Virus record (IMG/VR): IMGVR_UViG_3300042261_001024
Span: 1 to 25,497 of that record
From: a virus
Direction: 5' to 3' (one strand)
DNA: 25,497 nt
Shown here: positions 8,931 through 21,769 of the stretch, in pieces
Layout: each line of letters begins with the position of its first letter
Position numbering within the stretch: the stretch's first letter is position 1
The notes under the pieces: generated by a model
Databases searched by the model: none
Told to the model about the DNA's origin: nothing
Seen by the model: the letters and a program-made list of their open reading frames with translations, nothing else
Position numbers and translations under genes: made by a program

Positions 8931-9833
8931 ATGGGTGGCGGCCGCTCACAACAAGTGTCATATCAGGCTCCACCGCCTGATAATACTTTTGCAAAGTATT
9001 TAGAATATCAACAACAAAAAGAAGCAAAAGCTGAAGAGCGTGCTGCAGCAGAACGTGCAGAACAAAAAGCAGCAGAAGAAGCTCGCAAAACAGCAGGCGC
9101 TGCTAACTACGGCGCTTTAAAGTCTGGTGTTGAACAACAACTTCGCCAAGGTTTATTAAGTTACGAAGACGCTACTTCTCGTTTGCGTGACTATCAAACC
9201 AAATACGACATGGCTCCGGTAGAAGGAGACATTTCACAGCTTGGTCAAATTTATAGTCAAGAGTTACTTCCGGGGCGTAGGCAAACTGCTGTTGGTTCGG
9301 CCTATGAAGAGATTCTTGGTCGCCAGGCTACAGAAGAAGAAAAGACCCGCGCCATGGAGCGCTTTAGCCAGGGTTATTACACTTCTAATCAAGACTTGCG
9401 TGACGCTCTCTACAAGAGCACCGAGTATCAAGATAAATACAATCAAAGTTATTTAGATAATTATTACGACACCAAATTTGGCAAGCAATCTGTTGATGCG
9501 ACTGGAAAGAAAACGGGTCAGCGCACATTTAAGTTTTCGCCAAGTCTTCTCCCAACAATGGGTGCGGATCAAGCCGCAGGTCTACAGGCTCGCACTGGCA
9601 TTAGCATGCCACAGTTTGGCGATGCTTTTACAGGCACACCGGCTGAGCTAGAAGAGCAACAACAGAACATTCGTGACAGCCGTCAGTTCCTTTACAGCGC
9701 TGGTCTCACCAACCTTCAAGGTGAAATTGATAAAGAAGTTCAAAAATTAAAAACTGAAGGCAGTAAAGAGCTCGCCAAAATTCAATCACAAGGTTCGATT
9801 TATAATACGTTGGTTGGCAGTTTTAATTTCTAA
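8931..9833 (+). CDS. coiled-coil protein with DUF4214-like segment (300 aa)
   Basis: The N-terminal residues 20-55 form a strongly charged Ala/Glu/Lys/Gln coiled coil. Residues 124-167 (AYEEILGRQATEEE... to ...YKSTEY) match the pattern of DUF4214-type repeats: Y-x-x-hL-G-R, an acidic turn, a mid Gly-Tyr, then a Ser-x-Glu-Tyr end. Such repeats occur in secreted or surface and phage structural proteins. A second coiled coil lies at about 235-290. It is the last large gene of the first structural block. A virion role is likely but the exact position is unknown. The match is by eye and should be treated as tentative. Confidence 0.65.
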   Translation: MGGGRSQQVSYQAPPPDNTFAKYLEYQQQKEAKAEERAAAERAEQKAAEEARKTAGAANYGALKSGVEQQLRQGLLSYEDATSRLRDYQTKYDMAPVEGDISQLGQIYSQELLPGRRQTAVGSAYEEILGRQATEEEKTRAMERFSQGYYTSNQDLRDALYKSTEYQDKYNQSYLDNYYDTKFGKQSVDATGKKTGQRTFKFSPSLLPTMGADQAAGLQARTGISMPQFGDAFTGTPAELEEQQQNIRDSRQFLYSAGLTNLQGEIDKEVQKLKTEGSKELAKIQSQGSIYNTLVGSFNF

Positions 9834-9842
9834 AATTAAAAT

Positions 9843-9851
9843 TGCTATAAT
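9843..9851 (+). promoter_or_regulatory. extended -10 promoter upstream of tandem small genes
   Basis: TGCTATAAT is a perfect TATAAT hexamer with an extended TGn element. It lies in the 41-bp gap before the 9875 gene and predicts a leader of under 20 nt. The -35 region (TTAATT around 9823) is poor, as tolerated by extended -10 promoters. A near-identical TGCTAAAAT precedes the capsid gene at 17772. Confidence 0.55.
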
Positions 9852-9874: not shown

Positions 9875-10054
9875 ATGACTAGCTCCGTTCCTACCGGCCA
9901 ATCCGGCACTGAAGATTACTTCGATATCACCAAGTTCGAAGAGCTGCTCAACCGCCTTGAGGGCTCCAAGGGCCGTCAACAGCGTCAGAAGTCCCTGGAA
10001 GGTCGTCGTGACATCTTCGCTCAGGGTCTCGCCAGCATGATGAGCAATTTCTGA
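9875..10054 (+). CDS. tandem small gene, copy 1 (59 aa, MTSSVPTGQ-tagged)
   Basis: This 59-residue protein starts MTSSVPTGQSGTEDYFDITK and continues into a basic helical region (LEGSKGRQQRQKSLEGRR) and a hydrophobic, Met-rich end (LASMMSNF). It has no cysteine and no recognised family. Its codons are mostly C- or G-ending (GGC, TCC, TTC, AAG, CTG), like the capsid gene, suggesting high expression. It follows a good extended -10 promoter but has no Shine-Dalgarno. The following gene (10067) encodes the same protein with one substitution. A role in the virion or in packaging is suggested by its location only. Confidence 0.85.
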   Translation: MTSSVPTGQSGTEDYFDITKFEELLNRLEGSKGRQQRQKSLEGRRDIFAQGLASMMSNF

Positions 10055-10066
10055 TCTTAATCAGTC

Positions 10067-10246
10067 ATGACGAGTTCTGTTCCCACAGGCCAATCTGGTA
10101 CCGAAGATTATTTCGATATCACTAAATTTGAAGAGCTCCTGAATCGTCTTGAGGGTTCTAAGGGTCGCCAACAGCGCCAAAAATCTTTAGAAGGCCGTCG
10201 CGATATCTTTGCTCAGGGCCTTGCCACGATGATGAGCAACTTCTGA
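10067..10246 (+). CDS. tandem small gene, copy 2 (59 aa, recoded duplicate)
   Basis: The 59-residue product is identical to that of the 9875 gene except Ser to Thr at residue 54. At DNA level about 32 of 59 codons differ synonymously, with copy 2 favouring T- or A-ending codons (TCT, GGT, TTT, AAA, TTA). The gap between the copies is 12 nt and contains a small hairpin CTGAT/ATCAG (10051-10064) covering the stop of copy 1. This is not a recent tandem slip; either an old duplication under very strong protein selection or capture of a diverged allele explains it. Function unknown. Confidence 0.85.
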   Translation: MTSSVPTGQSGTEDYFDITKFEELLNRLEGSKGRQQRQKSLEGRRDIFAQGLATMMSNF

Positions 10247-11598: not shown

Positions 11599-13125
11599 GT
11601 GCCTTCTTATATTCACTTAGCTCATCGTCGTAACGCTCGCGCTGCTTCTAAGAATTACAAAGTACGCGATAACAAAAATGAAGAGCTTCTGGAGAAGGCC
11701 CGTCAAGACTTTGGTTATTTTTGTGAATACGTCGCAGATAAGCCACCTGCCGTACATCACAAAAACTGGCATCGTCACTTTATTACAGAAGAAGATAGTT
11801 CCTGTTTAATTCGTATTGCGGGACCCAACATTGACCTGCTTGCTCCCCGTGGTTCAGCCAAAAGTACAGTTCTTGGTTTGTTAACTGCTTGGGCTATTGG
11901 CATCCATACACAAGCCAAACTTCCGCTTCAAATTCTTTACTTGTCCTATACGGTTGACATTGCTCGATCCAAGTCGGCCACAATTAAACGCATTATTGAA
12001 AGTAAAAGATACCAAGAAGTTTTTCCAAAAGTACGGCTTTTAAAGAACGTTACAAGTAATGAGTATTGGTCTATTGACCATAAATTTGCTGGCATTGACG
12101 TAACAGGTGACGAACAATTTACGCTTTGCGCTGCAGGCCTTAAGGGTTCAGTGACCTCCAAACGTTCTCACCTTGTCATGATTGATGACGCCATTAAATC
12201 GGCGGCGGATATCTCCAACCCAGATATTCGTAAAACAATGCAAGACAACTGGAACGCGGTGATTGCTCCCACCATGTTTGAAGGTGGCCGAGCGATTTGC
12301 CTTGGTACCCGCTTTAGGCATGATGACATTCACGCCACCACATTTAACGAACAAAACAACTGGACCCAGATTGTCCTTTCCGCTATCCAGGTGGATCCCA
12401 TCAGTGGTGATGAGCTTTCCTATTGGCCAGAAATGTGGTCACTGGATTATTTAAAAGAAAAGAAACGACAAGCGCCTATTGCTTTTTCGTTCCAGTACAT
12501 GAATCAAATCGTTCGCCAGAACGAACTTTCCCTGCCGCCAGAACTTTTAATTAAAGCTGAAATCTCAACTGAGTTTGATGCCCTTGGCATTGGGGTTGAT
12601 TTGTCTGCTGGTACGAAAGAAAAGAACGATTACACCGTGATGATCCTGGGTGGTCGTATTGGTGACAAAATTCACATTATTGACTATCGGCGCCTACGCG
12701 TCATGGGCAACCTTGAAAAGCTTGATGCCATGAAGGAGTTGTTGCACGATTGGTCCATCATTGGCCGTGACGAAAACGGTCACTACTTTCCGACTTATTC
12801 GACGTGTGATATTTGGTCAGAAGCTGTCCAGTACCAGGCTTCCCTCGAAGCTGACTTTAAACGGGTCTGCTTGAATGACGAAGCTCTCTATAACTTGATT
12901 TGGCACCCAGTCAAAGGTTTCCGTGCAGATAAGCTGGCACGATTTAGGGGAATCATGGGAATGTTTGAAGACCGCAAGATCATCTTTAATCGTTTCCGCA
13001 ATTTCACAAATCTCTTCGAGGAACTCACGAATTTCGGCGTCAGTAGTCATGATGATACGGTTGACGCGTTAGTATGGTTGGTAACCGGATTAATGCGAAA
13101 AGGTAAATTACAACTTGATTACTAG
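11599..13125 (+). CDS. terL: terminase large subunit (508 aa)
   Basis: This is the DNA-packaging motor ATPase and headful nuclease. The Walker A is PRGSAKST at residues 83-90; the Walker B is HLVMIDD at 191-197, with the second Asp in the catalytic position; GTRF at 236-239 fits the coupling motif. The C-terminal RNase-H-like nuclease shows Asp334 (GVDLSAG), Asp404 (CDIW) and the HDDTVDA motif at 484-490, with RADKLARF (442-449) ahead of it as in Terminase_6C-type proteins. The 508-residue length is normal. The start is a GTG with no strong ribosome site. It docks on the portal encoded at 14436. Sure of the function; the subfamily is not determined. Confidence 0.93.
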   Translation: MPSYIHLAHRRNARAASKNYKVRDNKNEELLEKARQDFGYFCEYVADKPPAVHHKNWHRHFITEEDSSCLIRIAGPNIDLLAPRGSAKSTVLGLLTAWAIGIHTQAKLPLQILYLSYTVDIARSKSATIKRIIESKRYQEVFPKVRLLKNVTSNEYWSIDHKFAGIDVTGDEQFTLCAAGLKGSVTSKRSHLVMIDDAIKSAADISNPDIRKTMQDNWNAVIAPTMFEGGRAICLGTRFRHDDIHATTFNEQNNWTQIVLSAIQVDPISGDELSYWPEMWSLDYLKEKKRQAPIAFSFQYMNQIVRQNELSLPPELLIKAEISTEFDALGIGVDLSAGTKEKNDYTVMILGGRIGDKIHIIDYRRLRVMGNLEKLDAMKELLHDWSIIGRDENGHYFPTYSTCDIWSEAVQYQASLEADFKRVCLNDEALYNLIWHPVKGFRADKLARFRGIMGMFEDRKIIFNRFRNFTNLFEELTNFGVSSHDDTVDALVWLVTGLMRKGKLQLDY

Positions 13126-17859: not shown

Positions 17860-19026
17860 GTGTTCATTGATAACGACTTTCCAAAGATTTTGGGCGCGGA
17901 GCTTTACCGCCCCCACCCTGCGTATATCGCAGAAATGGCTGTGGAGCCCGTGGTCGTTCATGACTTCACTCGCCAGCCTGGTCAAACCGTTCAGTTAGAC
18001 CGCTACAAGTTCTGGGGTACCCCTGGTACTAAGGACAGCCGTGAGCGCGTGGCTGACCAAACCATCGGTACTGCCAACAGCCGCAACATCACCAAAGAGA
18101 AGGTGCTTGTTGTGCTGAAGGAATACACCGGTCCTGCGGACCCGGGCGATCCGACCGAGCCGTCGACCTTCAAGATTGCTCGTGAGACCCTGATCACAGC
18201 TCAGCGCCTTCTGCTGGACACGGGCAACCTCAACATGTTCCACCAGTCCATCGGTAGCCTGACGCTGCTCGATGACTACCGTCGTTGGCGCGACCGCGTG
18301 TTCATTGATGAACTCGCCAAAGCCGAAGCCAATGGTGCCGCTTCTAGCACCCAAGGTGGTTACTACTTCCCTGGCGGTAAGACCAAGAACGCTTCTGGTC
18401 AAATCACCTACACCGCTACTGAGTACACCGCTGATGTGCAGCAGTTCTCGGTTCGCACCGACCTGCTGACCGTGGTGAAGGATCTGCGTAAGCGCAACGT
18501 GCCGACCTTTGCTGATGGTCTGTATCGTTGCATCTGCGATCCCACCTTCATGATGCACCTGCGTCGTGATCCTGACTTCCGTGAGATCGCCCGTTACTCC
18601 GGCAACCCTGGTCAAGGCATGTACATGGGCAACCCCATGATGCCGAACAACACCAGCTTCTACATGGGTCCCCAGGCCGGCCAAGGCTACTTCCTGGCTG
18701 GTGAACCTGTTATGCCGACTGGCGTGCAGTTCGAAGGTGTGAAGTTCTTCGAGTCGACCAACTTCCCGACCAAGAACGTGACAACCTCCTTCGCTGGTAC
18801 CGGTGGCACCTACGCTTCCCAAGAAGTTGCCCAAGGTTACTTCTTCGGTCCCCAGGCAATCGGCGTTGGCATCGGCGGCCCGAATGCTCAGGTGTTGATC
18901 AACAACAACGATGACTTCAGCCGCTTCATCATCCTGATTTGGCAACTGTACGCTGGCTTCGAAATCCTGAACAAGGACTTCGTGACCACCGCGTTCAGCT
19001 ATGTCTCCGATGACGGCGACGTTTGA
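17860..19026 (+). CDS. major capsid protein (388 aa, probable HK97 fold)
   Basis: This is the shell protein of the head. The 388-residue length, position after portal and scaffold, and dedicated leader with strong ribosome site all fit. The N-terminal part (PAYIAEMAVEPVVVHDF then TVQLDRYKFWG) and the central LRKRNVPTFADGLYRCICDP, followed by DFREIARYSG, resemble capsid proteins of the N4-gp56 type by eye. The C-terminal part is Gly/Phe-rich with FFGPQAIGVGIGG. The start is GTG. Codons are strongly C-ending, as expected for the most abundant protein. A long minus-strand open frame opposite it is an artefact of that bias. Confidence 0.85.
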   Translation: MFIDNDFPKILGAELYRPHPAYIAEMAVEPVVVHDFTRQPGQTVQLDRYKFWGTPGTKDSRERVADQTIGTANSRNITKEKVLVVLKEYTGPADPGDPTEPSTFKIARETLITAQRLLLDTGNLNMFHQSIGSLTLLDDYRRWRDRVFIDELAKAEANGAASSTQGGYYFPGGKTKNASGQITYTATEYTADVQQFSVRTDLLTVVKDLRKRNVPTFADGLYRCICDPTFMMHLRRDPDFREIARYSGNPGQGMYMGNPMMPNNTSFYMGPQAGQGYFLAGEPVMPTGVQFEGVKFFESTNFPTKNVTTSFAGTGGTYASQEVAQGYFFGPQAIGVGIGGPNAQVLINNNDDFSRFIILIWQLYAGFEILNKDFVTTAFSYVSDDGDV

Positions 19027-21156: not shown

Positions 21157-21252
21157 GTGCAGCTCTCTGATTTCGATAAGAGCCGGGTCCGGTATCATCT
21201 GGGCTACTTTACCGTTTCGGTTCCAGCGGGTGACTATGCCCGCCCTTCATAA
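21157..21252 (+). pseudogene. orphan 5' fragment of the 21770 gene
   Basis: From GTG 21157 the frame encodes VQLSDFDKSRVRYHLGYF and on to GDY (27 residues identical to the start of the intact 21770 gene), then diverges (ARPS) and stops at 21250. This is the left-over 5' end of the gene in its original place, directly downstream of the M23-like gene. At codon level 16 of the 27 shared codons differ from the intact copy, all silently. A 31-residue peptide could still be made, but a function is unlikely. The end overlaps the 3' end of the opposing HNH gene. Confidence 0.8.
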
Positions 21253-21728
21253 TTCAAAAATAAATTAATATCTACACACTTTTCTCCTCCCTTTAATTTA
21301 ATTAACGCAGCATATTTTTCTGGAGCTCTTGTTTTTATGTTGTGGCAAGTTCCGCATAAAATTTGACATTTTTTAATTTCATTTATAATTCTTTTTTTGT
21401 TTGTTTTTATTTCTCCTCCTACGTTAAAGCTTTTGCTATGCAAATGATCAATATCTAATCCTTCGGCCTCTTTGTTATATCCACAAACCGAGCACCCATA
21501 AAACACTTTTAAAGCATTAACCCATTCCCTCAATTCTTTTGCTTTTTCTTTTTGGTATTTTTTGCTTTGTTCTCTATTCTTTGCAAAAGCCTCCGGGCTC
21601 ATCCACAAGGGTTGACGTGTTCCATTTGGTTTTATTCTGCCCCACTGGCGAAAAATATAGCCATCTTCACGCACATCTCCAAATTTAAAAGGTTCACCTG
21701 TTTTAGGATTTAACTCACACGGTTTCAT
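21234..21728 (-). CDS. HNH homing endonuclease (164 aa)
   Basis: From the ATG at 21728 the protein has an N-terminal G/F-rich region (KFGDVREDGYIFRQWGRIK) and PLWMSPEAF, as in many phage and virus HNH endonucleases. A Lys/Glu helix follows, then the HNH domain: Cys79-x2-Cys82, DIDHL with His95, and Cys125-x2-Cys128-His129-Asn130 as the zinc and catalytic end. An upstream TTG at 21764 would add 12 residues. It is the only minus-strand gene in the right 23 kb and splits a duplicated gene start, so it is a free-standing homing endonuclease that nicks or cuts an allele lacking it. Codons are AT-rich. Confidence 0.88.
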   Translation of the reverse strand: MKPCELNPKTGEPFKFGDVREDGYIFRQWGRIKPNGTRQPLWMSPEAFAKNREQSKKYQKEKAKELREWVNALKVFYGCSVCGYNKEAEGLDIDHLHSKSFNVGGEIKTNKKRIINEIKKCQILCGTCHNIKTRAPEKYAALIKLKGGEKCVDINLFLNYEGRA

Positions 21729-21769
21729 GAAGATTGCTGTCGTAGAATTGTTTAATCGAGGCAAGGCTT
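21237..21769. mobile_element. homing endonuclease insertion with recoded target 5' end
   Basis: Homology between the truncated start (21157-21236) and the intact start (21770-21849) ends exactly where the endonuclease gene ends (GGTGACTA at 21229-21236). The extra DNA is therefore the HNH gene plus a new, silently altered copy of the target 5' end. The insertion has kept the target gene functional by supplying a replacement start. The exact right boundary cannot be set because the donor tract may continue into the intact gene. Confidence 0.75.

Follow-up and report, generated by a model that had tools for sequence, protein, structure and literature searches.

Closest described systems

Polyubiquitin and histone gene families follow birth-and-death evolution under purifying selection. 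The phage gene array described here resembles them in that the protein is kept while its silent sites saturate, and in that copies are gained, lost and decayed; it differs from them in its low copy number, with no more than three copies within a single operon. The histone genes of yeast (PMC4700949) are duplicated genes of tightly interacting complexes, which combine strong purifying selection with interlocus gene conversion. The likeness lies in near-identical proteins made from two copies, sporadic conversion and strong protein constraint. The phage case differs in that the copies stand in tandem, the small gene is uncharacterised, and the copies range from partly homogenised to silent-saturated. 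Judging by titles and abstract openings, a narrow literature search on silently diverged tandem duplicates in phages gave nothing on this case, which may still have been published. The evolutionary pattern is thus of a known kind, and the protein family is uncharacterised.

Among phage records, only Synechococcus phage S-EIV1 (KJ410740) was found to have a relative of the 59-aa protein studied here. We compared it with the window, by which we mean the whole stretch of viral DNA analysed (25,497 nt). The S-EIV1 array (AHV82214-AHV82216) has the same order as that of the window, namely a 59-aa gene, a second small gene and an 82-aa gene, and the same promoter-like box. Slot 2 of S-EIV1 is, however, occupied by a diverged 53-aa paralog, whereas slot 2 of the window holds a near-identical copy. 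The window belongs to the S-EIV1-like cyanophage lineage: the array, the terminase and capsid-region genes are common to both, and megablast aligned 19% of the window's first 25 kb to S-EIV1, with an identity of 78.7%.

The array and its gene neighbourhood

The genes and elements considered are the following (positions in the window):

8931-9833, plus strand: gene for a 300-aa protein upstream of the array (context); open reading frame with no Pfam family
9842-9851, plus strand: TTGCTATAAT, a promoter-like box of the extended -10 type, with its end 23 nt upstream of the copy-1 start codon; the only match in the window
9875-10054, plus strand: 59-aa gene, copy 1 (slot 1); open reading frame, matched at a coverage of at least 80% in 109 of 109 other distinct loci
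10055-10066, plus strand: spacer of 12 nt between the copies, read from the sequence; without the promoter-like box in the upstream scan
10067-10246, plus strand: 59-aa gene, copy 2 (slot 2); open reading frame with 32 silent differences and S54T relative to copy 1, orthologous to copy 2 of locus L001
10272-10520, plus strand: paralog of 82 aa, which has the N-terminal motif MTSSVPTGQ..DDWFDLDKY in common with the 59-aa genes; matched by the copy-1 query over residues 1-49 with E 2.4e-6 and present in 108 loci at a coverage of at least 80%
11599-13125, plus strand: terminase large subunit (context); PHROGs phrog_38 with E 1.4e-73 and Pfam Terminase_6C with E 1.8e-9

Since the weaker 82-aa paralog follows the 59-aa pair as a third member, the locus reads as a three-gene tandem array. 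Its neighbourhood includes genes for a terminase, a virion structural protein and a major head protein according to PHROGs. The 300-aa gene gave one weak PHROGs match to a DNA ligase (E 0.002), which we did not credit. The major head protein gene (17860-19026) stands out by a GC3 of 0.69, as compared to 0.27-0.53 in most genes of the window and 0.59 in the next gene. On the minus strand, at 21234-21764, there is a 176-aa open reading frame with a CxxC...H...CxxCH pattern similar to that of an HNH endonuclease.

Relatives and the states of slot 2

A search of IMG/VR with copy 1 gave 259 stretches coding for a related protein; 80 loci were kept and two further queries added loci. L081-L083 were left out as duplicates of the window, and merging of identical or contained copy DNA resulted in 110 distinct loci. 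The 59-aa gene was found in 20/20 of the long records searched, with the matches of each record in one cluster. Bacterial and archaeal genomes were scanned for cellular relatives as well, and of the 219 stretches with the pattern, none was confirmed.

The 110 distinct loci harbour one copy in 69 cases, two in 39 and three in 2, so that 41 have two or three copies. When 6 loci without a hit to the 82-aa gene and 6 truncated loci were set aside, the remaining 98 loci with complete flanks comprised 43 with one copy, 34 with two, 1 with three, and 20 in which a single copy is separated from the 82-aa gene by a longer gap. Five of these 20 gaps gave a hit to a diverged 53-aa paralog. Of the remaining 15, 12 were inspected, and each has an open frame in slot 2 with the related core F-x-LD-x-Y-R-x-LL-x-RL. 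The copy counts and the longer-gap frames therefore define three states of slot 2: empty, near-identical copy, and diverged paralog of 46-53 aa. Gain, loss or decay of copies among the relatives is evident from the counts in the 98 loci and from L029, in which the second copy (1285-1470) is decaying, with an in-frame TAG and several replacements. Together, these data describe a core gene array, so far uncharacterised, that is typical of a widespread cyanophage lineage and combines a conserved promoter-like box with a variable slot 2 and C-terminal module fusions.

Two copies of one protein with different codons

The first-pass annotation of this DNA had reported two adjacent 59-aa genes, 12 nt apart, which differ by one replacement (Ser54Thr) and about 32 synonymous codons, and our count agrees with it exactly, including the gap at 10055-10066. 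Of the 180 nt, 35 are not the same in the two copies; they are spread over 33 codons, and all but 2 of them fall on third positions. Synonymous changes account for 32 of these codons, the remaining one being codon 54 with AGC in copy 1 and ACG in copy 2. The resulting protein identity of 98% rules out a chance homology of the two copies. A further claim, that copy 1 uses C/G-ending and copy 2 T/A-ending codons, was right in its direction but too sweeping: C/G-ending codons make up 39/59 in copy 1 and 27/59 in copy 2, and from copy 1 to copy 2, 21 of the 33 differing codons change from C/G-ending to T/A-ending, while 9 run the opposite way and 3 end in G or C in both copies.

Silent sites are saturated, not over-diverged

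If codons are drawn independently, with the usage found in 18 genes of the window, the copies are expected to have 33.2 silent mismatches (sd 3.5). The 32 observed match this expectation, and therefore the silent sites of the pair are saturated, not over-diverged. Statistics were calculated for 40 in-genome pairs, L029 with the stop in its second copy being left out. Their silent mismatch forms a continuum from 0.17 to 0.56 with the window pair at its upper extreme, and against a position-specific expectation for the family the top z value of the 40, 1.14, belongs to the window pair, the others reaching down to -4.0.

The same combination of conserved protein and different codons was found between phages. 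In a control with slot-1 genes of different loci, 96 of 5,995 pairs showed at most one amino acid difference (last 46 residues) together with a silent mismatch of at least 0.45. Thus, the pattern is not peculiar to duplicates within one genome. Where the 205-aa neighbour is still 92-95% identical between loci, the silent mismatch of the slot-1 genes is already near saturation (median 0.40), with a median of 3 core amino acid differences. Silent saturation is reached early, and so two copies that encode one protein with different codons can be accounted for without a special mechanism. This provides a quantitative null for what looks like a striking anomaly: a short constrained phage gene becomes silent-saturated while its neighbours are still more than 90% identical.

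The first-pass annotation had instead held that, besides protein constraint, selection or recombination avoiding DNA identity is needed, and had suggested that the direct repeats could thereby be lost less often through recombination. Silent mismatch above the independent expectation was looked for as the mark of selection against DNA identity, and was not found. The mismatch of the window pair is the largest of the 40 pairs scored, but it equals what independent codon choice gives, and even this largest z among in-genome pairs stays at 1.14. The longest identical run in the window pair is only 11 nt, but a run as short as this occurs in 26% of shuffles (P=0.26), so that the spacing of the differences is ordinary; in other lineages, identical runs between the copies reach 60-107 nt. 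The observation that none of the in-genome pairs has a silent mismatch below 0.17 is also a prediction of an avoidance model and counts against the explanation that we prefer (see below), although collapsing of near-identical repeats in metagenome assembly may be its cause. We consider selection for different DNA as largely refuted and most improbable.

Constraint on the protein

That the protein is under strong constraint, as had been proposed before, is supported by its conservation in comparison to neighbouring genes and by the between-phage pattern described above. The median identity of the 59-aa protein to copy 1 in other loci is 81%. Its identity exceeds that of the 300-aa neighbour in 74/74 loci and that of the 205-aa neighbour in 109/109 loci. 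It is not the most conserved protein of the block, since it leads the terminase in only 15/90 loci and the 82-aa protein in 30/108.

At equal silent mismatch, pairs within a genome have fewer amino acid differences than pairs between genomes. This was seen in a comparison of 20 clusters (first two copies per locus, open reading frames of at most 75 aa, one locus per cluster), in which 18/20 clusters lie below the between-genome median with a mean percentile of 0.16. The excess similarity could mean that the copies are co-adapted partners of one assembly, whose proteins are matched by selection in each genome while the DNA is saturated, which would be concerted protein evolution without homogenisation of DNA. 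However, silent sites that saturate early make a poor clock, and together with the mosaic tracts they confound it, so that the comparison is a weak one that leaves room for additional co-constraint within genomes. For this reason we downgraded concerted protein evolution; because of the fewer amino acid differences it is retained as a distinctly doubtful reading.

Age of the duplication and exchange between the copies

The nearest relative of the window is L001, and the 3.7 kb around the array are 93.1% identical between the two. Over the last 46 codons, copy 1 of the window differs from copy 1 of L001 by 2 nt and copy 2 from its counterpart by 7 nt. The check proposed in the first-pass annotation, whether the copies group with their counterparts as after an old duplication, thus gave a positive answer for this relative, and because the copies group slot by slot, the duplication appears to be older than the split between the window and L001. 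With silent saturation at a conserved protein (32 versus 33.2 ± 3.5) and orthologous slots in the window and L001, two marks of an old duplicate under purifying selection are present, the gain, loss or decay of copies among the relatives being a third.

In several relatives, the copies carry traces of exchange. Runs of identical codons are longer than in shuffles in 13/40 pairs at p<0.05 and in 7/40 at p<0.01, the latter being L030, L033, L162, L007, L020, L064 and L043. L030 and L043 are mosaics; the two copies of L030 are nearly identical over their 5' part and diverged over their 3' part. Such identity tracts within diverged pairs, which are the mark of gene conversion between duplicates, suggest that the copies probably recombine in relatives. 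In the window pair they are absent, and the run test revealed no recent conversion tract there (p_run 0.99). Two outcomes which the first-pass annotation had named as speaking against its reading do therefore occur among relatives, namely DNA identity between copies, in the form of the long tracts in the seven loci listed above, and a decayed copy, in L029 with its in-frame stop.

Trees of half-genes contain few exclusive sister pairs from one genome (8/40 for the 5' part and 5/40 for the 3' part). Thus, number and age of the duplications are not fixed by the trees, and a copy could have been imported from a relative. In that case slot 2 would have come from a related phage via recombination, and the silent differences would be divergence between phages. 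The scarcity of in-genome sisters is in line with this, as is the fact that copy 1 of the window has 28 copies from other loci nearer to it in DNA than its own partner, and copy 2 has 27. However, DNA ranks carry little signal at saturated silent sites over 46-59 codons, both window copies carry the protein states of their lineage, and in the tree of the 5' half the smallest group with both window copies contains two other sequences only, which fits a group of four formed by the window and L001. We regard an import as unlikely, albeit worth keeping in mind.

The explanation we prefer, with a probability of roughly 70%, is an old tandem duplicate in one operon, kept under purifying selection and, in some lineages, affected by gene conversion in pieces. 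Among the S-EIV1-like cyanophages, a small core gene would have been duplicated in tandem long ago within the lineage. Purifying selection would hold the protein while the silent sites drift to saturation, and short conversion tracts would re-copy parts between the genes in some lineages, with none lately in the lineage of the window.

Promoter-like box and expression of the array

The motif TGnTATAAT, which we take to be of the kind named extended -10, precedes slot 1 in 76/102 loci, and TATAAT or TAAAAT is found there in 102/102. The strict box is mostly located 22-28 nt from the start codon of slot 1. In the upstream scan, TGnTATAAT was found before 0/34 slot-2 genes and 0/103 of the 82-aa genes. 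The distinct loci (622 kb) contain 78 plus-strand matches to TTGNTATAAT, every one of them immediately upstream of slot 1 (78/78). In the whole long records there are a few matches elsewhere, and the box is nearly unique in these genomes. Its position suggests one promoter for the whole array. According to the preferred explanation, both copies would be co-expressed from this single strong promoter upstream of slot 1, and the second copy may have been kept mainly for dosage.

A different use of the two copies, as a source of two expression levels (an idea already put forward in the first-pass annotation) or of slightly different isoforms, seems very unlikely to us. The higher content of C/G-ending codons in copy 1 brings it nearer to the major capsid gene, and there may be a translational difference between the copies. 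However, a general codon bias of slot 1 was not supported, as GC3 is higher in slot 1 in 24 of 41 loci, lower in 11 and equal in 6 (mean 0.506 versus 0.480), and separate control was not seen, the second box that it would call for being missing before slot 2. Regarding isoforms, departures from conserved residues are more numerous in slot 2 in 6 clusters, fewer in 1 and equal in 13, but residue 54 is not fixed by slot, since L012 and L020 have Thr in copy 1 and Ser in copy 2.

Predicted structure and possible role

No Pfam or PHROGs family matched the 59-aa protein at E 0.1, and a PDB search gave only two weak matches (E 0.9). AlphaFold2 with 88 sequences predicted a disordered N-terminus and one helix at residues 18-57 (mean pLDDT 77.7, pTM 0.36), and a prediction without alignment gave two helices. 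The protein is small, uncharacterised and predicted to be mostly helical, and it counts among the core proteins encoded in the head/packaging gene block. Since its gene adjoins terminase, virion structural and capsid genes, since a disordered N-terminus is predicted to be combined with a long helix and a basic middle, and since the module also forms the C-terminus of longer proteins, our best proposal is a small, highly expressed component of the head or virion.

Longer forms of the array genes

Longer open reading frames that carry the 59-aa module as their C-terminal part are found in L009 (4203-4658), L061 (3207-3512), L064 (3367-3681) and L152 (2926-3183), and the N-terminal parts of these frames differ. 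A Pfam search with the four longer forms gave nothing useful. The fused gene of L009 begins with MGAQ, and because the adjoining gene has the same start, its sequence suggests a chimera. In L043 (3398-3955), the 82-aa paralog has grown to 185 aa via repeats of approximately 11 residues of the GEQERLG type.
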